Assembly (NCBI GenBank): GCA_002118135.1
Contig: BDIU01000033.1
Location: forward strand, 248,001 to 312,000
Source of the DNA: Trebouxia sp. TZW2008
Taxonomy: Eukaryota > Chlorophyta > Trebouxiophyceae > Trebouxiales > Trebouxiaceae
Length of the DNA stretch: 64,000 nucleotides
Direction: 5' to 3'
The stretch's first letter is position 1; every line of letters starts with the position of its first letter. Positions 1 to 64,000 of this stretch are shown here, piece after piece. The notes beneath the pieces are model-generated. The model saw only the letters and a list, made by a program, of their open reading frames with translations. It was not told the origin of the DNA and did not search any database. A program made the translations under genes and the position numbers.

Positions 1-128
1 TCAGTGAGTGAGGCAGCACAATGTGCTGCTGCCATACTGGGTTTATATCATCATGACCATCAGCATCATGGCTGCACAGAAGTGAGCATGCTATGTTGCG
101 GTATACAACAGTCTTCAGCTCTGACTTC

Positions 129-222
129 AACTTGCATGCAGGAGCTCCGAAACCAGTGCAATACACATTAGCACTCAGCTTTTGCTTGCATGCAGGAGCT
201 CTGGAACAATCACTGTACACAG
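129..222 (+). repeat. Two acceptor-side ghost copies of the exon starting at 250
   Basis: Copies at about 129-162 and 183-220 repeat the sequence around 243-272: a TTGCATGCAG acceptor followed by GAGCTCCGAAACCAGTG or GAGCTCTGGAACAATCACTG, against GCGCTGCGAAATCAAGTGAG in the real exon. Both lie upstream of the functional exon, as expected for duplicates of the intron-exon junction. Confidence 0.6.
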
Positions 223-249
223 GAGGACTCAGTTCTTGCTTGCTTGCAG

Positions 250-3200: not shown

Positions 3201-5222
3201 AGTAGACGTCAAGGCAGCTCCTTCCCATGCTGTGTCTACAACAGTGGGAGTCTCAGATGCTCCTCTGTCTAAGGAGCAGCTGAGCAAGCACCTTGCTGGC
3301 ACCCACAAGGTGTGTTCGAGGTTGCTGTTGAAAAAAGTGGCTGTAGACACTCAGAACATCACCTGGATTATTGCTTGTGCATTATCGCTTGTGACCGACA
3401 GCGGCAGCACAGCAGACAGCACAGACAGCTTCACTACAATCTCAACTGCAGACACCCTCAGATCCACTCAACTCACCAGCTGAGGCGTATATTAGCGATT
3501 TACGTCACAGCAAACAAACAAATGAGTGGCTGTGCAGGAAGGGCTCAAGTGACAGCACAAGCGGTCACTCCTTATTGCTTGTATTGCAATGCAGCTAATG
3601 TCTTGAGCTATGCCTACAAGAATTGCCTTACACGCTTCATGTCAAATCATACATGGCAGTGCAAACAACAGCTCTGTGAGCCAAGATCTAACTCATGGTA
3701 TTGGGTTTTGCTGCAGCCGAAGTCAGAGTGGTTATGCCAGAGGGCATCTCAGGCCCAAGGGCTGCGCAGGAAGGACCTGGTGGACCAGGTGCACTTTGAG
3801 GCTGTGCCTAACTGCCCTGGCTACTGCTGGCCCGCTGACCAGCTGTGGAGGGACATTGGCAGCGGTGGCCAGGCCAGCATCCACTAGTAAGCACCATCAT
3901 CCTCACCCTCTACCCACCTTGATCTACTTGCTGCTTGTGCATGCAATGGATTGACTTGCCTAGTATTGTTACGTGATGCAGTGCATATCTGCCCTGGCTA
4001 CTGCTAGCCTGCTGACCAGCTGTAGCGGAACATCGGCAGCGGTGGCCAGGCCAGCATCCATGATCAAGCTCCTTCACCTCCCTGTCGTCCTCATCTGCTT
4101 GCTATCTGTGCTTGCTTCGAGCTGGTTTGCCTTGTCACTTACACGTTGTCAGAAAATCATATTCATGGCAGTTCATCCTGTGTGTCTCTTCCAGCCTGCT
4201 GCTGCTGTGTTTGAGGATGCAAGGGGCATCTTGCTGCAGCGCCCAAGGGCAGTCAAGGTGCTGTCCTACAGCACAGCTTGCTACAGTCAAACCTTCCTAC
4301 TCACAGCAGAACCTAGCTCATAAGCCTGAATGACAATCAATATGCTGCTGCTGCTGTGCAGTGTGGAGTACTGGTTTGAGGATGCAAAGGGCGTTTTGCA
4401 GCGGCGCCCCAGGGCAGTGAAGGTGCTGCTCTACAGTACGCCCTGTCAGGTGGCGCTGGCAGACAGGGAGGCCGCCAACCTGGCTGTCCTGTCACCTCAG
4501 GGCCAGCCCTCCCCTTTTGCCCCTAAGCTGTTTGACAAGGTCATCACACTTGCCAGCTGCGGGGCGAAGCAGGCATGGCTGTATATGAGGTAAACATTAC
4601 TGCTTGGTTGATCATTTCAGTGATTGCTAAGCTGCCCTGTCACTTGAGGGACAGCCCTCCCATTTGGCCCCTTGACTGTTTGACAAAATCATTGCACCTG
4701 CCAGCTGTGGGGCCCAGCAGGCATGGCTCTATATGAGGTATGCAGATCACCCATCATCTGATTGCCTGCAGTCACTGGCATGCATCCTGCCGCAATGTTG
4801 TATCGTTGCAGCTAGGTGTTCAAGTACAGGTGCTGGCCAGTAGGCTGGGCTACAAACTGTCGAACTGTTGTCTTGTGATGCATGAAGTTCACTGGTCAAA
4901 CCTGATTTCTGCGACAAGTGTTTGACTGCATGTGCTGAATCAGCAATCAAGCCCATTTGGGCAGTCGATTGGTTTGTGCTTTGCTGCATGACCTGTCATG
5001 CCAAAGTTGCTAACTTTGAGTGCCTGGCTGCGCAGTCTGATTGAGGGTGAAGAGCTGTTGGACTACATGGGCAAGGCTCTGGAGAAAGTGAAGGGCAACA
5101 ACCTGACCCAAGTGGTGGCTCCGATGCTCAAGAGGCTGCTACAGGTATGTGCTTTGTTACTGTTCACATTTCCACAGGTTCTGCATCATGCTCTACGGTA
5201 TTACTTTGGCACCCTACAGTGA

Positions 5223-5264
<42 letters not shown>

Positions 5265-6883
5265 GTGTGTGTGTGTGTGTGTGTGCGTGTGCGTGTGCGT
5301 GTGTGCGTGTGTGTGCGCGTGTGCGCGTGCGCGTGCGTGTTTCAGGCAAGCATGGCACGTCAACATGAACTGCATATAGTCATAAGTGTCCTCCGGGAGT
5401 GAGTAAAAACATGTCAAAGCAGCCATTGCACTACACAGCAGTCAACGGGCCTGGCAGGAAATGATGCAAAGTTACTGTGCTCGCAGGCTGTGGCTACCAT
5501 GCATGGCACAGGGCAGAGGTGCTTTGGTGATCTGAAGCCCGAGAATGTGATGGTCCAGGGCAAGAAGCAGCTCACCCTTGTTGACTTCTCATCTAGCCAT
5601 GATGCCACACAAGGTACACACATATCCAGGGTGTGTCTGCCTGTGTCTGTGTCTGTACATCTTTGTGTGTCTGTCATGTTAAAGTGTCGAGGGAAACAGC
5701 AACTGACCCTTGTCGACTTCTCATCCAGCCATGATGCCACACAAGGTACATGCATATCCAGAGTGTGCCTGCGTCCGTTTCTATCTGTGTGCAGTCCAGC
5801 TGTGCAGCATACAAGGTTGACCTTTACCCTGCATCTGTCTGTATGTCTGTGTCATGCTCAAGTGTCGGGGAAAATGAAGCTGAGCAAGGTTGATTTCTCA
5901 TACAGCATTGACACCTCACAAAATACACCTTTATGCAAGCTTTGGTGCGTTTGTGTGTCTATGTATGTCTGCATCTGTGTGTGTCTGTGTCTGTGCAATG
6001 GTCAAGCGTTGTACCCTGTACCCCTTGCTGCTATGCTGCACTTCTGTGTATCATGATTGATCAAACTCATGTGTGTGGTATGCAGGGGCCATCAAGGGGG
6101 CTCCCTACACCCTTGGATACGCCGCCCCAGAGGCTATGGCAGCAGCCCTCAGTGGGGCTACTGCCCTCAGCCCTCTTGATGCCCACAAGGGTGACGTGTA
6201 TGCCATTGGAGTGATGGGGCTGCTGTGGCTGAGTGGTAAGGGCAACATGCCCTTTGGCCCTACCAAGGCGCAGGCCACAAGGATGCAGACTGCCAAGGGG
6301 GGCGAGACCAGCAAAGCACTGGAAGCAGCAGTGCTACATGTTGGCAGAATGCAGCAGGACTGGGTGAGTACAGCTCAACTTGCTTAGTGCAATGTGTGCA
6401 GGAGTGCTATGAAAGCGGTCTTTTGCCAAAACATTCAGAACTGGGTGTGTACACCTGCACTTCCTGGTGCAGTATTGGCAAGACTGCACAGAAAGCTTGG
6501 CATGTTTTGCTGACCTTGTCCCAAGACTGCATGCAACATGCATACTCTGTTGCACCTGGAACCAAGAACATTACCTAGCCATGCAGGTAATTGCTTCGCA
6601 AGATAGGCCAGCAGGGTTCTTTCTTGTGGCAAGTTAGACATCGTACAAGGTCCTATACTGACAGGGTTGCTGTGATACCTTGCAGGCTGATGCAGTCAAC
6701 AGCAAGGACAGCGATGGCGAGGCAGCACAGTGGCCAGAAAAGTTTGCTGGCGCTCTGCAAGGTGTCCTTAAAAGTGCCTCAATCAGAAGCGATGCAGAGT
6801 CGTTTTTCATGGCTTTGCTGCACCCCAACATTGCAAGAAGAGCGAATGCCATTGAGGCGTCGCAGCACTCGTTTCTCAAGTAG
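250..6883 (+). CDS. Divergent protein kinase with coiled-coil and low-complexity N-terminus (5' partial)
   Basis: Phase-consistent exons: 250-480, 782-1087, 1796-2119, 2375-2800, 3079-3309, 3717-3886, 4362-4589, 5036-5144, 5487-5613, 6086-6363 and 6686-6883 (stop), giving about 875 residues. The start lies upstream of the window. The first exon is charged and coiled-coil-like. The next four are Ala/Pro/Ser-rich with Lys-rich ends (NGSKKRKSKKKK, KRRLKEKQKAAK). The kinase fold begins at 3717. The glycine loop is IGSGGQASIH, the VAIK-type lysine is in RPRAVKVLLYS, the catalytic loop is FGDLKPENVMV (HRD changed to FGD, catalytic Asp kept), DFG is replaced by DFSSS, and the APE motif is kept in GYAAPEAM, followed by DVYAIGVMGLLW. 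It could be an active non-RD kinase or a weakly active one. I cannot name a subfamily. Most of its introns contain decayed copies of neighbouring exon edges. Confidence 0.75.
483..541 (+). repeat. ATC/CAT-type trinucleotide microsatellite
   Basis: An imperfect run of CAT/ATC triplets begins directly behind the splice donor at 481 in the first visible intron of the kinase gene. It is low-complexity intronic sequence with no coding role. Confidence 0.8.
612..670 (+). repeat. Acceptor-side ghost of the exon starting at 782
   Basis: The segment has CTTACAG followed by GTCAACAGCGCTGTCCACAG and CCCCGCCATGCC. The real exon has CCTGCAG followed by GTCACCATTGCTGACCACAT and CCCGCCCTGCC. It lies upstream of the real exon. 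Confidence 0.5.
1600..1695 (+). repeat. Acceptor-side ghost of the exon starting at 1796
   Basis: TTGGCTCAATCTTGG, an acceptor, then CCTATTGACAGCCCTGCTAC and AGCAAGCAG parallel TTGGCTCAAACTTTC, CCTAGTGACAGCCCTGCTGC and ACCAAGCAG in the real exon. A fainter third copy (GCCGGGACAAAAG after TTGCAG) is near 1490-1545. Confidence 0.6.
3990..4068 (+). repeat. Donor-side ghost of exon 3717-3886
   Basis: CTGCCCTGGCTACTGCTAGC, CTGACCAGCTGTAG and GGCAGCGGTGGCCAGGCCAG closely repeat 3814-3884, the end of the exon that encodes the kinase glycine loop. The copy carries an in-frame stop (TAG for TGG), and the GTAAGC donor has become ATGATC. It lies downstream of the functional exon. Confidence 0.85.
4190..4275 (+). 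repeat. Acceptor-side ghost of exon 4362-4589
   Basis: The copy has TTTGAGGATGCAAGGGGCAT, CTGCAGCGCCCAAGGGCAGT and AAGGTGCTGTCCTACAGCAC. The real exon has TTTGAGGATGCAAAGGGCGT, CAGCGGCGCCCCAGGGCAGT and AAGGTGCTGCTCTACAGTAC. It lies upstream of the exon and repeats the VAIK-lysine region. Confidence 0.85.
4637..4745 (+). repeat. Donor-side ghost of exon 4362-4589
   Basis: It repeats about 4487-4597, including the exon end and donor: GCATGGCTCTATATGAGGTA against GCATGGCTGTATATGAGGTA. The matching reading frame is broken by a TGA (CCTTGACTG for CCTAAGCTG). It lies downstream of the exon. Confidence 0.85.
5226..5341 (+). repeat. (GA)n-(GT)n compound microsatellite
   Basis: About 30 bp of GA repeats run directly into about 80 bp of GT/GC dinucleotides, within a kinase-gene intron. 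Long open frames on both strands here are artefacts of the dinucleotide repeat. Confidence 0.95.
5676..5935 (+). repeat. Ladder of two donor-side ghosts of the DFS-motif exon (5487-5613)
   Basis: The first copy, 5676-5765, keeps CTTGTCGACTTCTCATCCAG, CATGATGCCACACAAGGTAC and following intron sequence. The second, 5850-5935, is more decayed (AAGGTTGATTTCTCATACAG, GACACCTCACAAAATACACC). Both lie downstream of the functional exon. Confidence 0.85.
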
Positions 6884-8855: not shown

Positions 8856-8900
8856 CAAGCGCTCACCACGGTGCCATCAAAGTGGACAGCTGCTGTCCAT
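8856..8900 (-). repeat. Donor-side ghost of RAP exon 9134-8963
   Basis: On the plus strand GCTCACCACGGTGCCATCAA and GTGGACAGCTGCTG repeat GCTCACCGCAGTGCCATAAA and CTGGACAGCTGTTG at 8957-8995, including the GTGAGC donor. It lies downstream in gene sense. Confidence 0.75.
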
Positions 8901-8962
8901 AAGACACAAAGCAGTCAATGCAACATGCTGCTAATGGACTTGGGAGTGGAGAAAATGCTCAC

Positions 8963-11508
8963 CGCAGTGCCATAAAACTGGACAGCTGTTGAGCTACTTC
9001 CTGCAGCAGTGTCCAGCCACTGCCTCAGATACTCTGTCAGCTGCGTGCTGGAGGTAGCCATACTTGCAGGGACATACAACAAGCTGCCTGCCTGTGACAG
9101 CAGCTGCTGGCGCAGCATTGCACGTCCAGTCAACCTGCATGCAACACAAACGCACCTGATCTGAAAACTGGTTGATTGTGTTGCAGCATGACCCATCCGA
9201 TCAAGCTGCATGTGATATGAGCTCAGCTGATCTACACAGGTTTTGCTGGCATACATATGATGCAAGGCTTGGACTGCTGTTGAGAAATGATTATTTTGTC
9301 GTTTGAACAGGAAGTTCTAGTTTGGGTCAACTACGCAGCGATGAGAGAGCGAACGTGTGAATTCATACTGGCATGCCAGCTACCACATGTATACGATGAA
9401 TGCAATGAAACAGCCAAGTGAATGCACAACTTGGGCAGTTGGTATCGGGTTACGTTCGCTAATGAAGCTGTTTGCAGTGGGCTTTTGACAGAACCCACCT
9501 GCTGAATTGGTTGACAAAACAGACTGGTTCGTTGATGCTGATGAAGATGCAGTTGGTATGAGGATGCATTGGCTAGTGAAGCTGTTGAAAGTGGGCGTTT
9601 GACAGAACCCACCTTCTGGGCTGGTTGACAAAACAGACTGGGTCATTGATGCTGATGAAGACAGGCCTTGTGCCTTCATGTGGCTGCACAACAGCATCAA
9701 GCCAATAGCTTTTGAGCCCAACTCCACACATGTGCTGTACTCCCAATTGCCTCAGTGCGGCCGAGAGAGCGCTGGAAATTTGCCTGGCTGCGGTTTTGCC
9801 AGGGTCTGGCCGTGGCCCTAGCTCCTGAAGCGCTGCGTGTATGCACTTGCACGCATCATGATGTTGCAAGTTGCCATGTGAGGCGCTCTGCAGCTTGTCC
9901 AAGGCTTGGTACATCTGCACTAGGTTGGCTATTTGAAGTGGGGCAGAGGCTTCATACATTGCCAGAAGGCGTTGTAACAGCTGGGTATACAAATCTGGCT
10001 CAAGAACACCCACAACAGCCAGACTGTACGCTGTATTTGCAAGCGCCTGAATGCCTACTGTTCTGTCTCCGAGCAGACGATTGACGAAAAACCTGGCTTG
10101 CGCTGCTGATAGGGGAAATCTCAGCTCACCACAGGCAAGCAGAAAACTGCTGATTTCTTGGGACTTGGGTTGCTGTCCTGGGAAACTGCAGAGAACAATC
10201 ATTCTGCGTGTCATGTCCGAGGCCAGCTTAGGAGCAGGTGCATACTTAAGCTCCTGTAGAGCCCAAGCCAAGTTGGCAACACCCTGAGCAGTCGGACGTT
10301 GATCTTGAAACGGGGACAGAAGCAGCTGCTGAAACTCGTGACACAGCTCATCAAGTGTGCTGACTGTTGGCTGAGCTGCTGGTAACAAGGCTAGACTGTA
10401 GGTGATGTTGGACAGCGCTTGAGCGCTGTAATCTGACATGTCTGTATGTTGCAGATGCTGTAGAATAGCTTGTATAAGCTTTCCACTGCAATAGCCAAGA
10501 TTCAGCTCAACACACGCCAGCAAAGTGGAGGAGTGTGACTGACCAGAGGCGGTATGCATGGTCTGGATGTAACGCTCTGCTAGGCAATCAAGAGTGCCAG
10601 GCAACAGGTTATCTGGGTTGAATTTGAGCTTGGCAAAAGACCAGAAAGCATTGCTGATTGATCTGCTGTCATATTCTGACAAAACAGAGCGCAACCTCTG
10701 GAGCATTCTGCGCAGAAAAGCGCGCAGCTCGCCATAGACTTTGGAGGCTTGGCGGTGATACTGAGGATTCTGCCGAGCTGCCATCCAAATCTTCGCTGTA
10801 CCATACAAGGCTGCGCTGACATGTTTGTAATTCAGGCAGCCGTCGCTTGCCAAGAAGTGTGCATCCAGTACAGTGAAATGCGTCCTCATGAGCTCGACAA
10901 TGTCACCAGTCTCGGCAGTTGTGGCTGCAGCCTGACAATGCTTTGTGATGTTAATCCTGACGTGCGATCGATGGAAATGGTTGGTGCAAGCGGTCTGCAA
11001 GTCAGATAAGTACTCAGCTTTGCAACCTTGCCAAGAGAAGCTTAAGACATCATAGATACGCACCTGAGGTATTGCACTGCTGGCCTTCTGATGCCTCTCC
11101 AGCTGCCTAGCGTGCTGTTGCTGCTGTTGGGCCTGCAGAACAGGCATATGTTGGAACACAGCACACTTTGACTCAAAGCAAAGGTCCAAGCAGCTGCGGA
11201 AAGCGAGCACGCACCAGACCAGAAGTGCCTGGGGTTGCATCAATTGACAGAAGGGCGTTCGTGAGAAGCACGGGCTTCTGGTTTGCGCGCTGGGCCTGTA
11301 CATCTTTCGAACAGCAGGCAGGCCTGCCATGAAGAGCATACGTGTAAGCCCTTACAGGCAGGCGTTGACATTGAAAGCACTGCATTGCATCGCACCGGCA
11401 GCTCGCTGCTTTGGCGTGATTTGCGCGCAGAGGGACAAGACGGCAAGCTGGTCTGCTGATCTTTGCAGGAGCTTCAAGTCTGCGTATGAGCTTCAGCTCA
11501 ATGCGCAT
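8963..11508 (-). CDS. RAP-domain (OPR/FASTK-like) organellar RNA-binding protein
   Basis: Exons: 11508-11215, 11132-11064, 10931-9613 and 9134-8963, phase-consistent, about 618 residues to this point. The ATG at 11508 opens a basic, hydroxylated organelle-targeting-like leader (MRIELKLIRRLEAPAKISR). The large exon carries repeated helical units typical of FASTK/OPR-type proteins (for example ISNAFWSFAKLKF, GVANLAWALQELKY, ALANTAYSLAVVGV). The C-terminal RAP domain is split by an intron: PVFISINDPVCF then LTGRAMLRQQLLSQAGSLLYV, matching the family pattern of a beta strand followed by G-x-x-x-LR-x-x-LL. Such proteins bind organelle RNAs and affect their stability, processing or translation. Plastid or mitochondrial location cannot be decided here. 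The end of the gene is uncertain. Confidence 0.72.
9437..9550 (-). repeat. 114-bp donor-side ghost of the RAP exon ending at 9613
   Basis: This tandem partner of 9551-9664 has the same order of motifs: CAGTTGGTAT, AATGAAGCTGTTTGCAGTGG, GACAGAACCCACCTGCTGAA, TTGACAAAACAGACTGG and TTGATGCTGATGAAG. It contains a copy of the exon end and donor and lies downstream in gene sense. Confidence 0.9.
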
Positions 11509-49287: not shown

Positions 49288-52200
49288 ATGGATCGCAGCG
49301 ATGTCATCGCTCAATTCGTCTCCCTCACTAATGGCAGTGACGCTGAAGCTGCCTTCTATCTTGAAGCAGCTCACTATGATCTAGATCGTGCTGTGGCTAT
49401 GTTTTACGGTGGGTGCTGTCTATGGTTGAACTCAGACATTGGTCACACGCTCTTGCGATCTGCAACGCATGTGGCAGCATGTCTGCATCATCAAACCTGC
49501 TAAAGTATGCTTGCTGCAGATCAAGCCCCATCTGGCCTGCAGCATAGAGCCTCAGCATCAGCTGCTTCGAGGCTTCCTGAAGCGACTGCCCCTCCACAAG
49601 CAGCTACGCACAGACCAAGACGTCAGAGACCAGGTCTCTTCCAGAGAATGGTTCGCCTACCACTTTTGGCAGTGGGTGCTAGCGTCAGGATTGTAACTGA
49701 GATTGTTCGGTTTGGATACGCCTGCACAACAGCAGTTGGGAGCAGAGTCTTGCCGCATTCCATAGTTTCCGCACTGCAAGGTAACGACGTGCACATAGAC
49801 TTCATGCAGGTCAACGTGTAGCCATGCATACATACAAAAGCTGTGCACGGACTGCTCACACATATACAGCCTTGTGCACGATAACTCCCTGGGCATCAAG
49901 ACAGCTCAGATGGATATGCAGGACAGCTTTCACAAACACAGCACCTATAAGCATACTCAGACCAATATTGGAGATGACACTGCAAGTTTGAGTTTGTCAC
50001 GTGCATCCATGCCAACAAAGTATTTACTGATTGAATTGCTGTCTCCTCCCTCCCTTCTACATGACATGCCTTTTGCATGACATGCATGTAGAATTGATTG
50101 GCTGTTCACACTCAAGCAGGCTGATTGTTGCTCCACACGGTCAAGCAGCCTCTATTTGGCAGTGCTACAGTAACCTCTTTGTCACGATTGCTTTGGTATC
50201 AAGAAGGACGTCTATATCAAATTGTCTGTACTCAGAGGTATCACTGCAGTCAGAACTGTACTGATGAACTCGAATTACACTGTCCTTACATCAAGAATGT
50301 CCTTACATTGGGTGTTCTCATGAGGAGTACTTTACAGGAGCTACACAAGCACTTCTTCGAGGCAACAGATATGAAGACCCACCTCAGTCTGCTGCTTCCT
50401 TCAAGCAGCTTATGCAGCAGCGCTATGGCCTGCAGTGCCCAGACTTTCAAGAAACCAGCTGGCAAGATGCAGCCATTCAAGCGCACAGGCAGTTCAAGTT
50501 TTTGTTTGTCTACCTACATTCGCCAGACCATGAGGTCAGCTCCTTCAGAACTGCAAGCCTGTTCTGCAGCATCAACTGCAAGCCTGTTTGCATCACAAAA
50601 TGCAGGCCTACTTGCAGCTACAAAGCTATCTTGTGAACTTGTATGCAAGCATGGTGCATCACTTGCTACACTGTGACGCAGCATGTGAGTGGCTGTCTGT
50701 GCTTGCAGCTGTGATGCAACTGCCGCATGACCATAAGTGCACTCAGCACTGTGCCTTGCAGCCATGAGCAGGAAAAATTGCCGTAGCCATTGATGCTATA
50801 ATCAGTCAAAAAGCTGCAAACCCAAAAATCTGATCAAACAAGAAAGCTGTACTGTGCTTATGCTTGCAGGATGCAGATAGATTTTGTCAGCAGACGCTGT
50901 GCAACCCAGAGTTTGTTCACTATGTCAACTCAACCTTCCTTTGCTGGGGGGGTGATGTCCACAAAAGCGATCCTTTCATGGTGGGACATGACAAAAGCCT
51001 TGTGCCTGCATGCGCTATCAATGCAAGACATGCCTACTGTGCCATATCATGTCCACAAAAGCGATCATTTCATGGTGGTACCTTTCAGTGCATGCATGCT
51101 TTGTCAATGCGGAACATACTTGGTGTGCCATGCAAACGGCTTCTTCAAGGTTCTTTTGGCTTTGGCCCCATCAGTAGCGGTCTTGGGATTCATACCCTGC
51201 TCTGCTAGGAGTGTGAGTTCTCTGTGCTGTATACCAGACCTAGGTAAAATGTGTCGATGATGCTTGGCCATGTGTCATCTTGTGTGTGGCTCCTTGTGAC
51301 ACTGTATCAACAACTTTGGGGCTGTGTTAGCTTGGAAACCCGTCGCATGTGCTGTTGTGACAGCATGCACACACAATTGCACCTGTTCTTGCTGTCGTTT
51401 GTGTTGGCCTCAAGATGCAGCAGGCGTAGGCACACAATCTTCTTATCATTGGAATCCTGTTTGAGCAGCCATTTCATGTGTTTGCTTTTCCAGAAAGCAG
51501 CATTGGCCAAGCAGCAGGCTGAGCAGGAGGCAGCTGCATTAGCCAAGCGGCAAGCTCAGCCCGCTGCTTTGTTAGGGCAGCTGCCTCCTGCTAAGCCTGC
51601 TGCTTGGCTAATGCTGGTGCTTCCTGATGTAGTTTGTTGCTTGGCTCATGCTGCACTCATGCCCCAAATTTGCGTGAAGTCTCAATCATCACACAACGGT
51701 GGTAGTGTCTTGCAAAGCTAGCAGTTAAGCAGCTTGCTGCATCAATGCTGCCCTCGATTTCATGCTAAACAAAAGAGCTCAGGCAATGACGGCCTGTCAG
51801 GGTCTCAGATTGGACATGTGAACAGACATGTGGACAACATATAGTCAGCAGCTGTGCTAGAATGTGTGACACACTATGATTTCTTGTAGATATCATTATC
51901 ACCATCACGACTTTTGTGAACATTGATATCATCATTGCCTTCATTCATTGTTGTCATGAAACCAGACATGTCTGCTATGCACTTCAGCAGCCAATTGCAC
52001 ATTGCACATTGCACCCCTACATAGCCTTGCTGTCTGGATCAAGGTGTCAGTAAGTGTCATTTCATGCCACAAATACCAAGAGACAAAGGCAATTCTGCAG
52101 CTTTTCAAGGCTAGTCTGCAAAGATCTGTCTGGTGGACAGTTCAGCAGCCAGCTGCATGTGGCGCAGTACTCCTGCATAGCCTTCCTGTCTGGAAGAACA

Positions 52201-54970
52201 CTCAATCAGTATTTCATGCAACAGATATCAGAAGACAAAGACAACTCTGCAAGTTCTCCAGGCTAGTCCTGCAGACATTTGTCTGATGTGCAAGTCAGCA
52301 GCCAGCTGCATGTTGCACATTAGCCTTATATAGCTTCTGTGTCTGGGTTTGCACTGGAGAGTATGACGATCACTTTTCTAGTGTGCAGTTCAGCAGCCAA
52401 TTGCATGTGGCGCACTACCCCTACATAGCCTTGCTATCTGGGTCAGGCCAGAGAACAAGGAAGGTAGCCAGCTGCGAGGGCTTTGCTTCACCTAGTGAGC
52501 TCATGCAGACGCTACAGCCAGCTGTTGAAGAGCATGGAGCCCAATTTGTTGCTGATCAGGCAGATCACAATGAGCGGGTGAGCTGATATGTTGATTGTTG
52601 TCAGCCCGCATGTTGGCATGATTGTGTGTTGTCATGAATTTTTTTTTGGCCAGGGAGAGCATGCAGACGCTACTGCCAAGTCTTAGCAGCTTGTGAGCTT
52701 GCATAATGGGATGCCTGCATCAGGTCATGCTTAGTGAGCTCATGCAAAAGCTGCAGCTTACTGTTGGAGAGTGCGGAGTCCAGTTTGTTGTCAGCTTGCT
52801 TGCATGCAGATTGTGGTCTGTCTGATCTGCATGCTGGCATGCAAGCATCAGGTCATGCTTTGCTTCAGCTAGCAAGCTTGTGCAGACTCTCAGTGTCTTG
52901 ACACTACAGTCTGCTGTTGAGGAGCATGAGGCCCACTTTGTTGCACATCACGCACATCAATGAGCGGGTGAGCATGCCTATTGGCAGTGTTCCCCTCTCT
53001 GAGATATGCAGATCGCCAATGCTTCACAATCTGGCATGTTGTGAGCAAATTTGCCAATTTGCGCATGGTGAGAACCTGGCCTATACACCTTACACTGTAA
53101 ACAACCAACAGACAAGACCTCAAGTTTGAACAGGGTGTTGGCACGTCTGTAAATGGTCATGACTTGCCTACACACAGCACTGCGTTCCCATGCTGTCGTG
53201 CACATATGAATGACGCATGTGAGCCCAATTGATCCAATCATGCAGTACTATATGTACATGTCAGATGCTGAGGGCTTCATATTTCAGGCACCTTTGGCCA
53301 TGGCTGCACTCGTGGTGCTCAAGCTCATGTTGAGCACTGAAGTAATACTTACAGCTCAGCGCAGCATTGCAGCTGAATTTGCTGCATTCCAGTATGCGAG
53401 GCCTGTTCTCGACTTAACGCATGGCTGTTGCATGGCTTGCAGAGAGCTGGTAGCAGGTGTGTTCTGCAGCAACTCAGGGGCTTTTGGAGATCAGGCACAG
53501 TAGTAGTCAGGAGCCCACAGTCTGCTTTGCTTGCTGCAGCTGGACCAGCAACTGAGGCAGGAGAAGGGTGTGGAGCTCTTTGCTAATTGTGCTGTTGCAA
53601 CCATAACAATTTGGCAAGCCCCAACTGACAGCATGGTGTTTTGCAGCAACTAAATCGGCGGCTGAGGGAGGAGCAGGATGCCGAGTACCAGCGCAGCCTG
53701 TTGGCCGACCAGGAGCGTGAGAAGCAACAAGCTGCTGAGAGGGCAGCACAGCAGCAGCAGCAGCGCGCCGCACAGCAAGCGCAAGATGCTGAAAGGTAAG
53801 CTGCTGTTGTCAGTTGTGCATGTGGTGTACTCTCCCAGCAGTGCCTTGTGAGGGTCAAGATAAGTTGACAGCGCGTCTTGATATAATGCACAGCAAGCGC
53901 AGAATGGTGAGAGGTCAGCTGCTGTTGTCACTTGTGCATGCAGTGTGATTCTTCCGCAGTACCTCGTGAGAGTCGCCATAAACTGCCTCAGGGCATGCAC
54001 TTAATGTGCTCGCAAATGGGCATCAATCACATCTTGCAGCAGATGCATCAAAGATTGGCTTGACACCTTTTTGGCAGCCAGCATGCACAGCAAGGTGAAA
54101 TTGTCTTCTGTTCAAGATGGCGATGCTGTGCAGCATCTAGAAGAGATCACAATTTGACCTTGCTGTGCATGCTGCTTCCTTTCAAGGACAACATCGAAGT
54201 CTGTCATAAAGGCACGTCCTGTGGCGTTGTTTATTTGCTTCCCACTGGGCACTTGAGCTCTTAGCGCTGATGCAGGGCAGAAAAAGAAGCAGCAGAGAAG
54301 AAGAGGACTGACCGGGCAACAGCCCTGCAGCAACGAAGGGCTAACAAAAGGGTCCTTCTGCCTGCAGAGCCCCCAGTGGGGACTCCCAGCACAGCTGCCA
54401 TTCGTATCAGACTGCCTGATGGCTCCTCTGCCCAGCGCAGATTCTCATCTGATCAGCCACTTCAGGTACTGTCACTAAACAAATTCGTCTAAGCCAGATG
54501 CAAAGTTACACAGCAGCAACTTGCAGCGCTGCTTTGATGTACCGGATTCAGCTCATGGCAGTGAAGAGTTGAGCAAGGTGGCGAGCAAAATGAAGTAGTC
54601 TATGTAGCGTTCTGGACGCATCCAGAAGTTGCTAGATGGCAATGGTTTCCATGCAGAATGTGTGATAGAGTTGAAGCTCATGATCAGTTCTGCTGCAGGC
54701 ACAGGCTTGTGCATAGTGGCCTGCATGCAACGTGGGTGACGCTACTGTCAGACATGCGCTTGCAGTACTTTGTCGTACAAAATCTGCTTTCTGCTGCAGG
54801 CTGTGTATGACTTTGTTGATTCTCTGGAGGGGCTACAAAGCTTAAGCTACAGCCTAGCAACAACCTTCCCCAAAGTCATTTACAGCTCTGACAAGCTTCA
54901 GCAAACAATTCAGCAGCTAGGTCTTGCGCCACAAGCAGCCATGCTTGTTCAGAATCATGATGATGACTGA
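49288..54970 (+). CDS. FAF2/UBXD8/PUX10-type UBA-UAS-UBX protein
   Basis: Eight phase-consistent exons: 49288-49408, 49520-49780, 50362-50534, 50870-50980, 52389-52577, 53647-53795, 54276-54465 and 54800-54970, giving 454 residues, close to animal FAF2. Domains: N-terminal UBA (FVSLTNGSDAEAAFYLEAA), then a hydrophobic hairpin (LPLLAVGASVRIVTEIVRFG, followed by YACTTAVG) that in this family inserts into ER and lipid-droplet membranes. A thioredoxin-like UAS domain follows (FKFLFVYLHSPDHE, FCQQTLCNPEFVHYVN, CWGGDVHKSD), then a long charged helix (LNRRLREEQDAEYQRSLLAD). The C-terminal UBX domain (IRIRLPDGSSAQRRFSSDQP, then DFVDSLEG) binds Cdc48/p97. The protein is expected to recruit Cdc48 for ER or lipid-droplet protein degradation. 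Introns are packed with ghost exons. Confidence 0.93.
51040..51095 (+). repeat. Donor-side ghost of FAF2 exon 50870-50980
   Basis: TGTCCACAAAAGCGATCATT and TCATGGTGGTAC repeat TGTCCACAAAAGCGATCCTT and TCATGGTGGGAC at 50957-50988, with the exon end and donor. It lies downstream of the exon. Confidence 0.85.
51965..52345 (+). repeat. Three acceptor-side ghosts of FAF2 exon 52389-52577
   Basis: Copies near 51980-52050, 52135-52200 and 52283-52345 share CTTCAGCAGCCAATTGCA or GTTCAGCAGCCAGCTGCATG, then a CAC.TACCCCTACATAGCC-like block and CTGTCTGG. The real exon start is TTCAGCAGCCAATTGCATGT, CCCTACATAGCC, CTATCTGG. All three lie upstream. Confidence 0.9.
52645..52975 (+). repeat. Three donor-side ghosts of FAF2 exon 52389-52577
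   Basis: Copies near 52650-52690, 52730-52800 and 52855-52975. The last is the fullest: GCTTTGCTTCAGCTAGCAAG, CTGCTGTTGAGGAGCATGAG, CCCACTTTGTTGCACATCAC and AATGAGCGGGTGAGC, still with an intact donor. All lie downstream of the exon. Confidence 0.9.
53530..53590 (+). repeat. Acceptor-side ghost of FAF2 exon 53647-53795
   Basis: GCAGCTGGACCAGCAACTGA, GGCAGGAGAAGGGTGTGGAG repeats GCAGCAACTAAATCGGCGGC, TGAGGGAGGAGCAGGATGCC. It lies upstream of the exon. Confidence 0.7.
53880..53940 (+). repeat. Donor-side ghost of FAF2 exon 53647-53795
   Basis: CACAGCAAGCGCAGAATGGT, GAGAGGTCAGCTGCTGTTGT repeats CACAGCAAGCGCAAGATGCT, GAAAGGTAAGCTGCTGTTGT. It lies downstream of the exon and includes a modified donor. 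Confidence 0.88.
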
Positions 54971-55443
54971 TTTGCAGAAGATCACTCAGCTGCATGCAGA
55001 TAATGCTCTGACCGTTGATTTGGCATTTAACAGAAGAGTGCAATGCCAGCAGCTGCAAACTGCACTGCCTCAAGCTCAGCAATGATTTTCTGATGCACCT
55101 CAGCTTGTGCAAGTGCCAAAAGTGTTTCTGCTCTTGCTTGAGCAGGCTTTCTGGCTCATATGAGACAATGCATTGTCTGTTCCTTTACCAGCATTTGCAT
55201 ACAGCTCCTCCGTACTTTGCTGTGGCTCGATTCAATCACGCTTTCATGCATCAGGCTGGACTGCTAGACAAGACCTTTCAAGAATGCTTACATTCACTGC
55301 GCACTGACTTACAATGATCAAATCAGCCGCTATGCAAAGCTCATGTGTACAACAAGAAACGCGTTGAATTGTCATGTCTAATGCTGTCAAGAGCCAGCAT
55401 CGTAAGATTGGAACACATGACGTCTAATTGATTGCTAGAACGC
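54971..55443. other. Convergent intergenic region
   Basis: Holds the 3' flanks of the FAF2-like gene and the minus-strand membrane-protein gene. No gene was recognised. Confidence 0.5.
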
Positions 55444-58400
55444 TCAGAGACCAGTCTGGTGGCCTGCGGCGGTGGTGGATGCGTTCCTAGTAAAGCTAGG
55501 GCTGCTGATCATCTCCTCCAGGCCGGTAGGCTTGCCAGCAGCGGCCAGGGAAGCAGGGTGAGTGACGGCACCAGAAGTGAAGGCGCCTGACTTTCTGCGG
55601 ACCTTGGAGCCGACCGGTGCCAGCCCGCCCATGTAGCCAGTGGGGGTGCCGACCGCACTTCCAGGGGAGTTCACAGCCGATGCATTGATAGACGTGATCT
55701 TACCCGCGCCTGCCTTGCCTGTGCCAGGAGCCCCGCCCAGGTTGGGAGTCTGAGGGTTGTACACCACTTCGCTACCCTGCAGCAGCACAAAAGCACTGTT
55801 TAGCCCTGTGCACTTCACCTGGAGCTTACATGCATCTCGTGTGGATGTAGCAGCATCTGACAGGACTACTTTGTGACACATATACAGCTACGCAAACCAA
55901 AGCTCGTTCTTCGATGTCGTTTGGAGCATTTGCTTCCAGATCACCAACTCGATACAGCGCTGTGATGCAGAACGAATCAACAAGAAGCAGAACAAAATTC
56001 TGAAGAAAATTGTTGCTTACCCTGAGAAGATGGGCGCCGTGCAAGTCTCTGAGCAACAAGGCCAATGCTGCAACACAGAGGATGCCGACAATACCACCAG
56101 CAATGACGCCCCTCACTCCAGCTGAAGACAGGTGCTTGTGCTTGTCTGCAACAGCACGTGAAGCATCATCACCAAGTGTTGTCAGGAAACAGGTGGACAC
56201 AGTGCATGCACATGGCATGAGACAAGCATACTGTCAGCTAGACTTTGCTCTACTTGCATTCACAGCAGTGTTGCCATCCAGACTGCATCAGCCTAGTGAA
56301 GCACATGCAGCTTGGAGTAGCATGGTTTGGAAAAGCTACGAAGTCACGTATGCATAGCAGTCTGCACTGCGCTTTAGCAAAATCATGCCGCAGCAAGCAA
56401 ATGGAATAACAGCAGAAAGAATTGCAGCGTATGGTGTGCACGATGGCTGCTGCTGCACCCCTTCAAGGCCAAAGCAACCCTGGAAGCTGTTGACCTGCTA
56501 ATGCAAAGGAACAAGGAAATTATTAATGCAGACAGAGGAAAAGTCTACACTGTGAGTCTTTGTATCAAAAGTCACTGTGTGCAGAAGCAGCCCTGGACTA
56601 GTGAATATGTCGTGAGCACTATGATGTGTGCTGATGCAAGCACTGCGGCAGCGTTTGATGTAGGACTCACCCAGACACCAGTGGCCAAACTTGTCCCGGC
56701 AGTAGTCCTTGACAGTGGCGTTGATGCCGCCAGGAGTAGTGACATTGTAGTACATCAGCTGTACGCCCCAGCCCACTCCAGAGGTGTTCAGCTGGTTCTG
56801 CACTCAACACAAAACAGCTCAGAGACAGCACAGTCTGGTTGACAACTGTGCTTTTGACTATTTAGCCCTTGAGCAGCAGCTTGATTGGTGCGCACTTCAG
56901 CAATATTCAGCTGTTGCTGCACGCAGCACCAAACAGCTCAGACATTGCATTGACTTCATCATTGGGTCATGGCTACAGACAATCTGTTAACCAAGACATG
57001 AACACAGCTCAGACAGTGCTGTGGCTGTGTTGTGATGCATTTGACCATTTAGCCCTTGAGCAGCCAGTCTGTCAGCAGCAGCTTGCATTCTGGCGACACT
57101 GTAGCTTTGAGTGATATGAACAGATCTGACAAGCATTGTGCAGGTCATGATGAGGCTGTAAGGCTGTGGTTTTGTGATCCTAGCTGGACACATAGGATGA
57201 CTTGACCTTGCCTCGACTCTGTGCTGAAGCATGCCTCATGAGCAGCCATACACTTTTGCTGCTAATCTTGTGCAGCAGCTGTGCAATAAGCGTAAGTCAA
57301 TGCATGGCAGCTACACGTCCAGTGCATAGCTGCGGCCGGCATCATGTTCTGATGTTCACCCACAAACAGATGTCACACAAGACTTCTTGCCAAGCTTAAT
57401 CTTACTGTTAAGGCCGCATGCATAGGGATGTATGTCTGGCAGTAATGCGCAACCAATACATTCACAGCGAGACAAAAAGCACTGTCATGACAATGCTGGT
57501 ACCTCCAAGGTGTAGTTAGTAATGGAGTACTGAAGCTCCTGAAGAACAGAAGGCACTACAGATGCGCTGCTGGCCACCATCTCCACCGTCACATCAGCCA
57601 CATTGTTATCAGCCGATGCCAACAGAGCACGCCTGGGCCCATAGAAGTATTCCTGCATGACAATGATCGCATGTTTTGTGTCCAATGACTCACAACCTCG
57701 TATTGGGTATGCGGGGGTTTGTTACTTTTGTGCTGGCACCTCAAATGGGCGCCATTGTCTGAAGTTTGCTGTGCTGACATGGCCCGTTTGTGACAAAGAG
57801 TGCTGTACCTGCACTAAATTCTGGCAAATCAGACTGAAAGAGCCACAATGGATGCCATCCTAACTCAGCAACGCTTGCAGACTGCATGGATGTCATGGCA
57901 ACATCAACTACAATATGCCAAGCGCACAGCAACTGTGTAGTGTGTCTGGTTACAAATCTGTGTTCTGAAGAGCTCTGACATCATGTTTGCTGCAATGCAG
58001 TTGACTGACCATCGTCCCGCGAGATGTGCCTGCACCAATGTACTTTGTATCACGAGATGAAATGGAGAGGGTCCTGCTCTACTTGCATTTTGTCATGCTG
58101 CGGGAACCAGAGGTTTGAAAGCATACCTGCTGCATGCTGTTGTCCATGAGCAGGCTTCTCCTCCGCCTGGATGAGTAGACCTGGTTCACATCACTAATGG
58201 ACATGTCATCAAAGTCCACAGTGCTGATGACTTGAAACAAGGCCAGCAGAAATGTAGTCTGACGCGCCCTGTTGAAGGGAGTCACACCATTCCCACTGAC
58301 TCGCAACACAGAGTACAAAGCGTTGTCCCCAGAGCTAGTGCTGTTGGAAGTGGTGCTGTTGTCAGTGTCCATGACAGTGACTGGGGCGTAAGTCCTGACT

Positions 58401-59327: not shown

Positions 59328-60233
59328 TTTCTTGCCACCAAGCAACCGGCCGTACGTGGACCTGCAAGTCAGTGCAGGCTGATTTGGTTCACAAGCATCA
59401 GTGCCTGCGTAGTGAAAGCTGACACAAACCTATTCCTGTTCACATCAACTTGAGTTTATATGCGCCACAGGACCTACAACTGGCAGAGCAATGTTTGCAC
59501 AGGCACCAAGCAAAGTTTCTTGAAGCACATCGATGTTGCACAGGTGAGCGAACAGCAAAATTTGCAAAGCTGTAAGAATGCTATGGGTGCGGCGATGTAG
59601 CTGCACTCGTGCTATGGCACGGCTCAGACCCAAGGCTTTATATCATTGCATTCGCAAGCAAAGGACTGCCGCAAGCAAAAAGGCGAGTGCGCATCACCAA
59701 AGGCGGTTAATGCAAGAGACGGACGAAATACGAGCGGCCTCTGCAGTAGGTCAGCTTTGGCAAGCAGCGAAAGCTATGGTTTAAGCTTTCAGCAAATTCC
59801 TCGCACGGAAAGCATCCGGTGAGCAGCTCGAACGTACCAAGTTGCTTCAAGTCTGCCTGCAGGCCGCTCACACACGCATGTTCGGCTCTGCCTGCCTCGG
59901 TGCAACCCGCTCGCCACTTGCTGAACAGATGCCACTGGCAGGTCTTGCTCTGAACTGAACCTTGGACAGGCCGCAGACACGTTCAAAACAATGGGCGTCT
60001 TGTAATCAGTCAAACGCTTGTCGCCGGCTGCCACAGAGGCTCCTTACAGCGCACCCTGGAGCCTCGCAACTTGCGACTTGCGAGGGATAGTAAACACGCT
60101 TTCCCGCAGCTGACCGCCGCTGCTAGGCCTCATGCCGTCTCTCGTTAACAGCAGGCTTGTTCAACCTAAAGCTTGAAAGGCGCAGAAGTGCACATAAGCG
60201 AGAAAGTCGGCAGCGAGCCTCAATTCTTTGTAG
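59328..60233. other. Intergenic region with one possible small ORF
   Basis: Lies between the membrane-protein ATG and the dihydroorotate dehydrogenase stop, both on the minus strand. A plus-strand frame at 59578-59784 (68 residues) and a minus-strand frame at 60034-59789 both look mildly coding. Only the first is listed separately. Confidence 0.4.
59578..59784 (+). CDS. Possible small basic protein (68 residues)
   Basis: ATG to TAA, uninterrupted. An inner start gives MARLRPKALYHCIRKQRTAA then SKKASAHHQRR, a basic helix-like composition with a helical C-terminus (EIRAASAVGQLWQAAKAMV). No family is recognised and no splice evidence supports it. It could be chance. Confidence 0.25.
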   Translation: MLWVRRCSCTRAMARLRPKALYHCIRKQRTAASKKASAHHQRRLMQETDEIRAASAVGQLWQAAKAMV

Positions 60234-63200
60234 CTAGCTATGCTTTACAAAATGATCAACTCCAATAGCTTCCTGAACAGAGCTGAAGCCGTCTGCTTCT
60301 AGGCAAGCTGCAAGCTGTTGCTTCATCTTTGGCACAATTGAAGGGCCCTCGTACGCCAGCGCTGTATAAAGCTGGACCAAGGTTGCACCTGAACACATAC
60401 GGACCTGTGACCTGTCCTGGTATGACAAGTGATAAACTGCACAGCAATCTTTATGGTGTACATTCACGCTAACCTCTGTTCCATGCAAGCAATGCCAAGG
60501 CGTGATGGTCACATCACACACGACAGCGCTTGAACTCTCCCACAGTATGCAAACTAGTCTGCTGTTGGGATTTGTGCCATATTATGCTGGGAGCAGCACC
60601 ACAAGTCATGGCGCATTGTAGAACGTCACAGTGGCTGAGCTCAAATGGTAACGCAGGCAAAGAAGGCTTTTGAAAAGGGGCCAGTGCACAGTGTGTGATT
60701 GTGGCAATGCACTGCATGTGTCTGCTCTGCCTGGCTCTTTTTTGGTCTGCTGGCCAGCTTGCGACTGAGTCCACTGGACAATCTGTGCTTGAGCTGCTGC
60801 GAGCTTTGCTCTGAAGCTGTGCAATGTGTCAGGCAACATGGGGATACCCCACAGCCTGACTGACGGTACAGCAAAACAGCAAAGCTGGGCAATCAGTCAG
60901 GCAGAGGGTGCCAAGCACAAGCAAGTAATTGGACATACAGCTGTTACACTGTTGACGCCTGCAGTGCATTTCTTCTGCCCCAATCAAGTCTCACACATTG
61001 CCCAAGATTGCCGAAAGTTTACAGCCGTCTACAGAGCGTATGTCAATGGAGACATGTAGCCAGGCCCTGAACACAAGGTGAAAGCCTCTGGTGATGGTAT
61101 GAATGCTGTGAGATGCAGACAAAACACAGCTGATGTCGCACCTGCCCTGATTTTGCGGTACGCGTCCTCTCCACTGCTGACGCCTCCGCATCCAATGATG
61201 GGCAGCTTGCCCTTTGTCAGGCGGTACATGTCTGACAGGGCAGCCGTTGACAGGTCAAAAAGCGGCTTGCCACTCAAGCCTCCCACCTGCATAGCAAGAG
61301 TCATGTTGCAGCATGAATCAAGACCGTCCACAGCTTCAGCAATGCCCTTCTGATTCAGTTGATGCTTGGCAGCAGCATGTGGTTCCATTTGTACAGTAAG
61401 AGCAGAATTGGCTGTGCATACGGCCAGCGACAAGTTTGGAATAGCCCTCTTGGGCAATCAGCCACAGCGTTTGGCCATGTGATTCTTGGCTTGCAAATTA
61501 TTCTATACATCAGCAGTCGTCAGCTTGAAACAGTATCTCTGAGCCCGTAGGGTGCTCAGCAGTATCCCCTGCCTGCATGATGATTGTGTTGCTGCCCATG
61601 GGTACCAGCAATCACAGGCTCACAAACAACAACACCTCCCGCCATCATGGGATGGTCAGCCACAACACTTGAGCTTGTGAAGCAGCATGGTCTGAATAAG
61701 TCGAAGATTTGCAGGATGCTAGCAACCACAAAGTACCTCTGAGCCAATGGGACGGTCAGCAACAGCACAGAGTTTAAGAATGAAGAGAATGACCTACTAG
61801 AGTGCAGTATCAACAGACACAGGGTCAAAGCCAGTACCTCTGAGCCAGTAGGGTGATCAGCAACAGCCCCTGGCCGTGTGATTGTGGTATTGCTAATCAC
61901 AAGCCCATCTACTCCTAGCCTGAGGCACACTGTGGCTATATCTGACTTGTCTGCATCTGTCAGGTCTGGGGCTAGCTTGATGAGCAGGGGGGGCGGCCCC
62001 CTTGGCCCCCACTGCATCTGGTCCCGGGTGTTCTTCACCCTCTTGACTAGCTTCTCAAGCTCCTTGCGGCCCTGTAGCGCTCTCAGGCCTGAAATGCAAT
62101 GACAGCTGATGACCAGAATTGCAACGCGCGCCAAATGAATGTTACCTTGGCCCGAATCCTTTCTCACCAAGCCAGCTTGAAGTGTGCACTACAATTGTGT
62201 GACACACAAACATTAAAAGGCAGTTATGAAAGTGTGCAATGATGCCTTCATGACACTGCGCTTGTCAAGGCTGTTCACAACTGCTGTGTCAAGCGATTTC
62301 CGAAGCGCAGTTGCCCCTCAGTTGACAAAACAGCTTGCACTCTTCCGCTGTTGGGGTCGCTGCAAGGGACTCTGGGGTCAAAGGCAGGTTGAGGAATAGG
62401 TCAGACCATGTAAGGCATCATGCAAAACGCAGAGTGGTTGCTGGTGAAGCATGAAGCATCTTGCAAGACACTGGCATGTGGAGGGTAGTAGGACGGAGCG
62501 CATCAAACCCAAAATTTGCCAAAGGGTCAGGAAAGAATTTTGAGGTGCGCATTCTGTCATGACTTTGTGCTTGCAGATGCATAATTCATGCATTTTGCAG
62601 CAGCAAGAGCCGACAGTCAACAGACCTGGTGTGTTTGGGGAGGAGATGTTAATGACCAGGTAGTCAGCAAACTGCCCCAGTTTTGAGACGCCTATGGAGT
62701 AGTCAGCGCCTGCATCCTCGCTGGTCTTGTTCTTGCCAAGATTGACGCCTATGAGGCCGCGAGGCACCTCTGGTGTGGCAGGGCCAACAATGCCCTGCTG
62801 TCTGATGGTATCAAGCCGTTGGGACACTGCATCTACACCTTGGCTGTTGAATCCATATCTGTTTATCACTCCTCTGCAAGCGCCCACAGCAGCCTGAGCT
62901 GGCACGTCATCTCACATGGTTTGGACAGTGCTAATTTGAGACGATTGTTATTTCAGACAGTGACAGTGACCACACTTTAAGTAACAACATCTGCAATTTC
63001 ACAATCAATGAAGTAGCATGCATTGCCCTTTGCCACAAGATGGGCAGAGCGTCTTCTGTATGTGTCATCACGCACACTCTCACAGACAGAACATCGTGCC
63101 TTGCTGACTCACCCCAGTTCAGGCAGCCTGAAAGACCTCGGCTTTGGATTCCCAGGCTGAGGAAGTGGCGTTATGGTCCCTAGACAGCAGAAGCAAAGTG

Positions 63201-63974
63201 TTGTGAAGTTTTGTTGAATTGCAGATAACAAGAGTTGTTGGAGCCAAGCCAGTCAGCAGCTTGAGCCAGTGAAAGTGCATATCCTGCTGGCAACACGCTT
63301 ACCAACTTCTACAAACCCAAACCCAAGGCCAAGAAGGCCCTTGACCGCAGCAGCATCCTTGTCAAAGCCTGCTGCCAGACCTGCAGCACATTCATAAGTT
63401 TGGGCTGATGCATCAACAGACTGTTTGCATGTTACCCTGTTTTGCGGCATGGACACAGCAAGTTTGGTTGTACATTATTACTGATTTCACACTGACACTA
63501 TCTGTGTGGCCACCTGCTGGGTCCCCAAGACAATCATGTTGGTAGTAGATTTTGACTGACCAAGGCATTACAGCAGGGATGCAAGCGTACCTATGGGATT
63601 TGGGAAGTCCCTGCCCCAGACTGACACACCAAGGCATGAGCTGTCTGGCCTGTGTTCCCGAGGTACAATGCCGTGTTTTGCTGTCCAGATGGCTACATCA
63701 TGAGAGGTTTCTGCGTCTAAGAGCCGTAGGAAGGGGCCAAGCGCGCTGAAGGCGTCAAACTCAAGCTGAGTCAAATCGTTTCTATATGCTGCCACCACGC
63801 CTGCTGCTGTTGCTGTGCCAACTATCAAGAAACGTTTCTGTAGAGCATGCCAAGCATGGTTCAAGGGGTCATGCTGGACGGGACTGCAGGCCTAGTAGGC
63901 AGCAGTGTGCATCAAAGACTGCATACCGCATAGGTGCGTAGCTGACTCCGGACTGATCCGTGAATCCAAGACAT
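60234..63974 (-). CDS. DHODH: Mitochondrial class 2 dihydroorotate dehydrogenase
   Basis: Eight phase-consistent exons: 63974-63927, 63837-63591, 63380-63303, 63179-63113, 62873-62626, 62088-61838, 61286-61142 and 60388-60234, giving about 412 residues. It catalyses the quinone-linked oxidation of dihydroorotate to orotate in pyrimidine synthesis at the inner mitochondrial membrane. The short first exon ([16 protein letters not shown]) looks like a presequence and is followed by an anchor helix ([17 protein letters not shown]). Core motifs: [74 protein letters not shown] (catalytic Ser of class 2), [59 protein letters not shown] and [13 protein letters not shown]. The FMN- and orotate-binding Lys and Asn are present. 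The first exon is the least certain part. Confidence 0.93.
61530..61770 (-). repeat. Donor-side ghosts of DHODH exon 62088-61838
   Basis: On the plus strand GTACCTCTGAGCCAATGGGA with GGTCAGCAACAGC (61734-61767) and GTATCTCTGAGCCCGTAGGG with TGCTCAGCAGTATCCCCTG (61532-61575) repeat GTACCTCTGAGCCAGTAGGG and TGATCAGCAACAGCCCCTG at 61834-61872. A fragment at 61640-61680 (GGGATGGTCAGCCACAACAC) may be a third. All lie downstream in gene sense. Confidence 0.85.
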
Positions 63975-64000
63975 TCACTAACCAGATATGGCGAGGTGTT

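Follow-up and report, generated by a model that had tools for sequence, protein, structure and literature searches.

The window, a stretch of 64,000 nucleotides from the green alga Trebouxia sp. TZW2008 (C33:248001-312000, on contig BDIU01000033.1; genome 68.5 Mb in 527 contigs), contains predicted genes in whose introns lie decayed copies of the edges of their own exons, here called ghosts. Repeats and gene models were studied in a 250-kb sample that comprised the window, 30 kb on either side of it, 97.5 kb of C20 and 28.6 kb of C1, and to which the counts refer unless otherwise stated. A small gene finder trained ab initio on this sample predicted 378 exons and a median intron of about 360-400 bp, with consensus sites that were CAG/GTRAGY-like at the donor and TGCAG/G at the acceptor (the slash marks the junction). 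Genes of Asterochloris glomerata have a mean of 9 introns (PMC6652019). Some neighbouring genes are fused in the predicted models. Seven predicted proteins match, in pieces, the families of chalcone isomerase, kinase, homoserine dehydrogenase, dual-specificity phosphatase, Rubisco LSMT substrate-binding, UBX and DHODH. The ABC1K model is 97% identical to a relative over 451 aligned residues, and the sole structural difference is a segment of 30 residues, which is a ghost. The two closest relatives of the predicted ABC1K protein of the window show 90 and 89% identity (the duplicate included), followed by a sequence labelled Astpho2 at 82%, which we take to be Asterochloris, and by Myrmecia bisecta and others at 74-76%.

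Exon-edge copies and the side on which they lie

The window contains 24 exon-to-intron copies. Six carry the acceptor edge of their exon and all lie upstream of it, 13 carry the donor edge and all lie downstream, and five end short of a splice site, one of them upstream and four downstream. Thus, none of the 19 junction copies breaks the polarity. The original prediction had counted at least 25 decayed copies in at least nine genes; with the ghost at 44902-44989, which the gene finder called an exon, the number of copies is about right. The number of genes could not be confirmed because the models fuse neighbouring genes: the 24 copies sit in five models, or by eye in about seven protein units (kinase, helical-repeat, HEAT-like, ABC1K, UBX, DHODH and one membrane-like). 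The copies are as follows, with exon, source where located, and identity:

3974..4080, + strand, donor-type ghost, downstream of exon 3717-3886 (source 3797-3904), 84.3%
4209..4274, + strand, 5'-part ghost, upstream of exon 4362-4589 (source 4374-4439; match begins 12 bp inside the exon), 84.8%
4631..4740, + strand, donor-type ghost, downstream of exon 4362-4589 (source 4483-4592), 83.6%; in-frame TGA by eye
5686..5788, + strand, donor-type ghost, downstream of exon 5487-5613 (source 5553-5656), 82.7%
5889..5988, + strand, second, more diverged donor-type ghost of exon 5487-5613, 71.6%
8861..8895, - strand, donor-type ghost, downstream of exon 8963-9134, 85.7% over 35 bp
9435..9547, - strand, donor-type ghost of exon 9613-10994 (source 9549-9661, adjoining with a 1-bp gap), 85.0%
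24001..24188, - strand, donor-type ghost, downstream of exon 24336-24535, 73.3%
24663..24725, - strand, acceptor-type ghost, upstream of exon 24336-24535, 76.2%
27363..27412, - strand, donor-type ghost, downstream of exon 27588-27798, 84.3%
27509..27544, - strand, inner-part copy, downstream of exon 27588-27798, 91.7% over 36 bp
42882..42925, + strand, donor-type ghost, downstream of ABC1K exon 42584-42784, 84.1%
43041..43095, + strand, inner-part copy, downstream of ABC1K exon 42584-42784, 83.6%
44902..44989, + strand, acceptor-type ghost, upstream of ABC1K exon 45181-45359 (source 45169-45256), 86.4%
46290..46408, + strand, acceptor-type ghost, upstream of ABC1K exon 46463-46651 (source 46441-46559), 84.0%; in-frame TGA by eye
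51978..52041, + strand, acceptor-type ghost, upstream of exon 52389-52577, 84.4%
52129..52193, + strand, acceptor-type ghost, upstream of exon 52389-52577, 84.6%
52276..52348, + strand, acceptor-type ghost, upstream of exon 52389-52577, 74.0%
52732..52790, + strand, inner 3'-part copy, downstream of exon 52389-52577, 79.7%
52857..52887, + strand, short inner-part copy, downstream of exon 52389-52577, 83.9% over 31 bp (34.6 bits, near threshold)
52900..52973, + strand, donor-type ghost, downstream of exon 52389-52577, 82.9%
53888..53974, + strand, donor-type ghost, downstream of exon 53647-53795 (source 53770-53856), 83.0%
56890..56942, - strand, acceptor-type ghost, upstream of exon 56671-56797, 79.2%
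61531..61593, - strand, donor-type ghost, downstream of DHODH exon 61838-62088, 77.8%
61732..61766, - strand, donor-type ghost, downstream of DHODH exon 61838-62088, 85.7% over 35 bp

Merging of the same-strand local matches in the sample gave 246 events, of which 97 were exon-to-intron, 93 intron-only, 55 exon-to-exon and one multi-exon. The 97 ghosts comprise 30 that carry the 5' edge of an exon, 47 that carry the 3' edge, 16 inner copies and four whole ones. Equal numbers of acceptor-type ghosts on both sides, set beforehand as the result that would contradict a polarity, were not found: 29 of the 30 lie upstream, and 45 of the 47 donor-type ghosts lie downstream, while the 16 inner copies are split eight to eight. 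By gene model, the side of the broken copy is thus as expected in 74 of 77 junction events, a count from which the inner, whole, intron-only, both-exon and multi-exon events (16, 4, 93, 55 and 1) are excluded. The earlier statement that there is no clear exception holds for the window; in the whole sample, three of the 77 break the rule. The exon-to-exon events consist of 18 within the same exon, 13 in arrays, four multiple ones and 20 that could be classified as 14 acceptor copies upstream, two donor copies downstream, three inner and one whole; with the longer partner taken as host, all 16 junction-type pairs obey the side rule.

A model-free test used only the coordinates of whole-genome Pfam matches and considered pairs nested within 1 kb. 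It covered the families AAA, Pkinase, DEAD, kinesin, SNF2, sugar transporter and p450, with 589 matches listed, and the counts for Pkinase and kinesin are those among the matches listed. Matches to the mitochondrial carrier were kept out of the polarity count because this domain is itself a repeat. Among the matches listed there were 37 nested pairs, in which N-terminal parts lay upstream in 20 cases and downstream in one, C-terminal parts lay downstream in 12 and upstream in none, and four pairs were ambiguous, so that 32 of the 33 classifiable pairs obey the rule. These 33 include several pairs from single loci (C222, C15) as well as ghost-ghost pairs, two in C222 that were scored for the rule and one in C15 that was scored as the exception, and possible read-through into a neighbouring exon (C184, C275, C329) would favour the rule. 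A hand count by locus among the matches listed, with ghost-ghost pairs and possible read-through dropped, gave 14 loci with N-terminal and seven with C-terminal parts, all 21 of which obey; two of the 21 come from the sample on which the gene finder was trained.

The copies are close to their sources and in the same orientation. A BLASTN self-comparison of repeats less than 2 kb apart gave ratios of same-strand to separated inverted copies of 43:1 in the window, 82:1 in C20 and 2:0 in C1, whereas one dinucleotide shuffle per region gave a single match in all (0 and 0 for the window). A more sensitive scan, at a threshold of at least 32 bits and before merging, found 275 same-strand and 16 separated inverted local matches, the orientation and range of head-to-tail copies. 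The shift between nearest copies has a median of 140 bp and lies within 80-267 bp in 80% of 156 pairs. Mobile elements or introners that carry exon edges, or errors of assembly, could in principle produce such copies, but we regard this as scarcely credible. Nothing was found in its favour, and the excess of local matches of the spacers between copy and source (30/90, as against 13/90 random intron pieces) is explained by repeated local duplication. In the three BLASTN regions, 127 of the 132 same-strand pairs lie within 2 kb, and spacers match distant sampled loci no more often than random pieces do (11/90 and 12/90), so that introners, copies of which are expected in many unrelated genes, were rejected. 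The divergence of 10-30%, together with damage to the reading frame, speaks against assembly error.

Spacers and the probable duplicated unit

The ghosts are very probably relics of short head-to-tail duplications, mostly of 80-270 bp, across splice junctions. Such duplications would arise throughout the genes of the alga, and each that crosses one junction would leave a complete exon, its splice sites functional, beside a truncated copy. If the acceptor is crossed, the whole exon would be the second copy and the truncated copy would lie upstream; if the donor is crossed, the whole exon would be the first copy and the truncated one would lie downstream. The truncated copy, which has a splice site without its partner, would be removed with the intron and decay. 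At the level of the DNA, the trigger may be end-joining of staggered breaks, as has been proposed for insertions in rice. The polarity is thus the geometry of tandem duplication plus selection for one intact exon, and no independent rule, since a tandem duplication that is cut once in an exon leaves only one intact exon and the broken copy must sit on the intron side.

The side alone is less telling than it looks, because a local templated insertion, in which break repair copies a nearby segment in the same orientation to a site 20-200 bp away with original sequence between, yields most of it without a tandem unit, from short range and selection that removes insertions into exons. A symmetric model of this kind already places about 85% of the copies on the correct side; copies with sharp edges and many spacers that look unrelated to their surroundings also suit it, and a review describes non-tandem duplications in rice that derive from within 200 bp of breaks (PMC7407515). 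However, with introns assumed to be 350 bp, the model predicts 11.8 wrong-side copies among 77 where three were seen (P=0.001), or 9.7 among 59 when counted by exon (P=0.006). With fewer wrong-side copies than under insertion, the rule points to a tandem origin more than it stands alone. Inner and whole copies number 20 against 77 junction copies, where the null gives.111 against.133. Together with the spacers, which as a group resemble only the side that a tandem unit predicts, this makes local insertion an unlikely source of most ghosts.

For the spacers, a test that tolerates indels gave a mean z of 1.29 for resemblance to the flank that a head-to-tail unit predicts and of -0.05 for the opposite flank (n=44, Wilcoxon P=5e-5), with z>2 in 13 and three of the 44, respectively. 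The values for predicted and opposite flank were 1.17 and -0.25 in the 16 acceptor pairs and 1.57 and -0.12 in the 23 donor pairs, and the best cases were long matches interrupted by many small indels. Among the ghosts of the window, the spacer of 3974..4080 resembles the predicted flank (z 3.4), while those of 4631..4740, 5686..5788 and 46290..46408 gave no support (z -0.5, -0.3 and 0.1). The resemblance to the predicted side is hereby established for the group, in which copies either adjoin or are separated by what looks like the decayed rest of the unit. We take the spacer to be the intron half of the unit, in which both sides decay; in the exon half, decay is confined to one side. Branch-point motifs were too weak to show which side is the original, and the breakpoints look too decayed for a signature of microhomology or filler sequence. 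The originally proposed head-to-tail duplication across the splice junction is thus supported by the side of the copies, the group test of the spacers and the Pfam pairs.

Decay, splice sites and extent

Decay was followed in 56 cases, a single one being taken for each exon and type of copy. Of the sites at codon positions 1, 2 and 3, 170/1147, 141/1147 and 287/1142 were mismatched (.148,.123 and.251), that is about 0.13 at all positions and about 0.12 extra at the third, a pattern that fits one free copy and one constrained exon. Frameshifts make up 24 of the 28 indels, and there are 10 stops in 1108 codons. The shift is a multiple of three in 19 of 74 junction ghosts, which is no excess, and in 17 of 30 repeats within one exon (P=0.011). 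The claim that the displaced copy decays as if neutral is therefore supported.

The splice sites of the ghosts persist. The AG is retained in 18 of 21 acceptors, where identity predicts 14.0, and the GT in 22 of 31 donors, where it predicts 20.3, and the median site scores of ghost and real sites are 5.9 and 6.7 for acceptors and 4.2 and 5.3 for donors. The introns thus contain decoy splice sites, as had been predicted, and since AG and GT are retained at or above expectation, the decoys are not visibly purged. Whole-exon ghosts are scarce, with five as against about 16 expected (P=0.001), although whole copies in partial decay may have fallen into other classes. Unpurged decoys and scarce whole exons would fit a splicing machinery that recognises splice sites in pairs spanning an exon, in which case half-exons may be harmless and the copies probably go unused in the mRNA.

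Working alternative exons, duplicated and kept by selection for mutually exclusive or other alternative use, would also retain such sites. Some copies have an open frame and good splice sites, some are called exons by the gene finder, and the retention of AG exceeds expectation. Nevertheless, this explanation is highly improbable. The copies are half-exons, of which 13/56 are frameshifted and 9/56 contain stops, rather than the whole, in-frame and constrained copies of mutually exclusive exon duplication, and the excess at third positions is about twofold, below that of two well-constrained copies. The ABC1K ghost at 44902..44989 is open in frame, but the segment is missing from the relatives P0001, P0003 and P0005 (97, 88 and 81% identity) and from 112 of 120 relatives' proteins, the other eight being unresolved. 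Gene finders can thus take ghosts for exons, as happened here.

Several observations weigh against head-to-tail duplication as the origin. Three of the 77 junction copies lie on the wrong side, one at a predicted exon of 40 bp in a multi-copy stretch, one in a tandem array with a period of 181 bp and one with a match of 27 bp. Most simple exon-edge pairs of at least 60 bp do not adjoin, with gaps of 19-195 bp in 34 of 46 and of at most 7 bp in 10 of 46; in favour of a tandem origin, intron-only simple pairs of that length mostly adjoin, within 7 bp in 7 of 11 (hand count). When 96 pairs were judged by strict end extension, 17% showed resemblance to one flank or the other, where 10% were expected, and the non-tandem view that this suggested was given up in view of the indel-tolerant test with its opposite-flank control. 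Even in the latter, only 13 of the 44 spacers exceed z=2 singly, and inner-exon pairs lean the other way (0.44 to the predicted and 0.97 to the opposite flank, n=5), and a minority of the copies may be true local templated insertions. The codon-position pattern also fits two weakly constrained copies. The C1 region is nearly free of ghosts (1/42 exons, 58/336 elsewhere, P=0.011), spacer-less inverted copies form a second, rarer class of local duplication, and the gene models are ab initio.

Ghosts touch 59 of the 378 exons. They cover 4.6% of the intron bases, and all visible copies cover 12.7% (4.1 and 11.6% in the window). The proposal that introns are largely self-derived from exons is thus not borne out by the visible ghosts; older copies would be invisible. 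Random placement of units with the observed lengths gives 46% intron-only, 15% acceptor, 15% donor and 5% whole-exon events, whereas the nearest-copy pairs comprise 60 intron-only and 50 junction events (21 acceptor, 29 donor; expected ratio 0.65). Measured against the intron-only ones, junction-spanning duplications are thus somewhat in excess of random placement, and this can be explained by the greater visibility of half-constrained pairs.

Other local repeats were also observed. Palindromes, the spacer-less inverted copies, numbered 15 in 250 kb at a threshold of at least 45 bits, as against 0 and 1 in two shuffles. Imperfect ones lie in the window at 41949-42045, 44264-44344, 51497-51654 and 54079-54174; the third of these shares 120 bp with a predicted exon, much as a ghost in inverted orientation would. 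This class of local copies was absent from the original prediction. At 22191-22772, a predicted intron holds a tandem array in which a 116-bp unit recurs about five times, and a predicted intron of the kinase gene has a long GA and then GT simple repeat at 5218-5343. Three adjacent exons of a coiled-coil/kinase model at 782-2800 share short similar segments (71-73% over 64 and 82 bp), as though local duplication had enlarged the coding sequence as well, and a coding stretch in a predicted exon at 37433-37572 is repeated with a shift of 81 bp, a multiple of three. The stretch C1:100001-128643 (L002-L004) is gene-rich with similar introns and almost no duplications.

It is possible, though doubtful, that tandem duplication is a main engine of intron DNA in this lineage, quick enough for introns to be renewed, and that half-exons with near-authentic sites are tolerated through pairing across exons. 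If so, the ghosts would record intron growth like a clock and provide a natural collection of failed splice decoys that can be dated. It is seldom possible to see how introns lengthen in the absence of mobile elements; in this alga each event is an oriented scar beside a still-constrained source, so that the rate, size and fate of duplications could be read from one genome. The scars also raise the question why strong decoy splice sites cause no problem.

Comparison with known systems

Internal gene duplications were reportedly treated by Gao and Lynch in 2009. No statement of the side rule, or of junction duplication as a mode of intron growth, was found in the accessible text of the open-access literature searched, Trebouxia included. 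The remark that no description of such a rule on this scale was known stands to that extent. Degenerate copies of exons within introns are already recognised as a class, called inter-boundary and intronic in Exonize (PMC12343006), and tandem genomic duplication is an established source of new introns (review PMC3443670; Drosophila PMC2891723). Across 20 genomes, Exonize found more genes with partial, inter-boundary and intronic events than with full-exon events, and event numbers were generally lower in lower eukaryotes (PMC12343006). Tandem exon duplications were studied in PMC9013439, and Letunic et al. 2002 is cited in this literature. The ghosts resemble the events in both studies in that exon sequence recurs within introns of its own gene, in part as unannotated or degenerate copies. 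In contrast to the present analysis, PMC12343006 and PMC9013439 centre on full exons and possible alternative splicing, and no rule on side or breakpoint was found in their available text.

In the Exonize sense of an exon that matches an intron of its own gene, 5.3% of the predicted coding bases have a copy of at least 80% outside predicted exons within 5 kb on the same strand, as against 0.13% on the other strand. The corresponding exonic bases at 80% are about 2% in human, and in fly and worm, at 0.08 and 0.06%, far below the level of the alga (PMC9013439). With another aligner and full annotations in that study, the comparison is one of orders of magnitude only, and human is not far off; the scale of exon-edge duplication in this alga looks unusual.

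The rice insertions of Vaughn and Bennetzen 2014 are local, tandem or partly tandem duplications of 10-1000 bp that are ascribed to inaccurate break repair (PMC7407515). The ghosts are like them in being local tandem or near-tandem duplications, but the rice insertions are not framed as exon edges, intron growth or splice decoys in the available text. As in intron gain by tandem genomic duplication, a partial, exon-touching duplication makes one copy intronic; there, however, the duplicated element is an exonic AGGT and the outcome a new intron, whereas the ghosts apparently come from duplication of an existing junction, by which an intron already present is lengthened. The source exons of the ghosts keep their own predicted splice sites. 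Mutually exclusive tandem exons (PMC9013439) are likewise adjacent exon copies with splice sites, but they are whole and in use, whereas the ghosts are half-exons, many with stops or frameshifts. The kind of event is already known, and its interest in this alga is the scale and the unpurged splice decoys.

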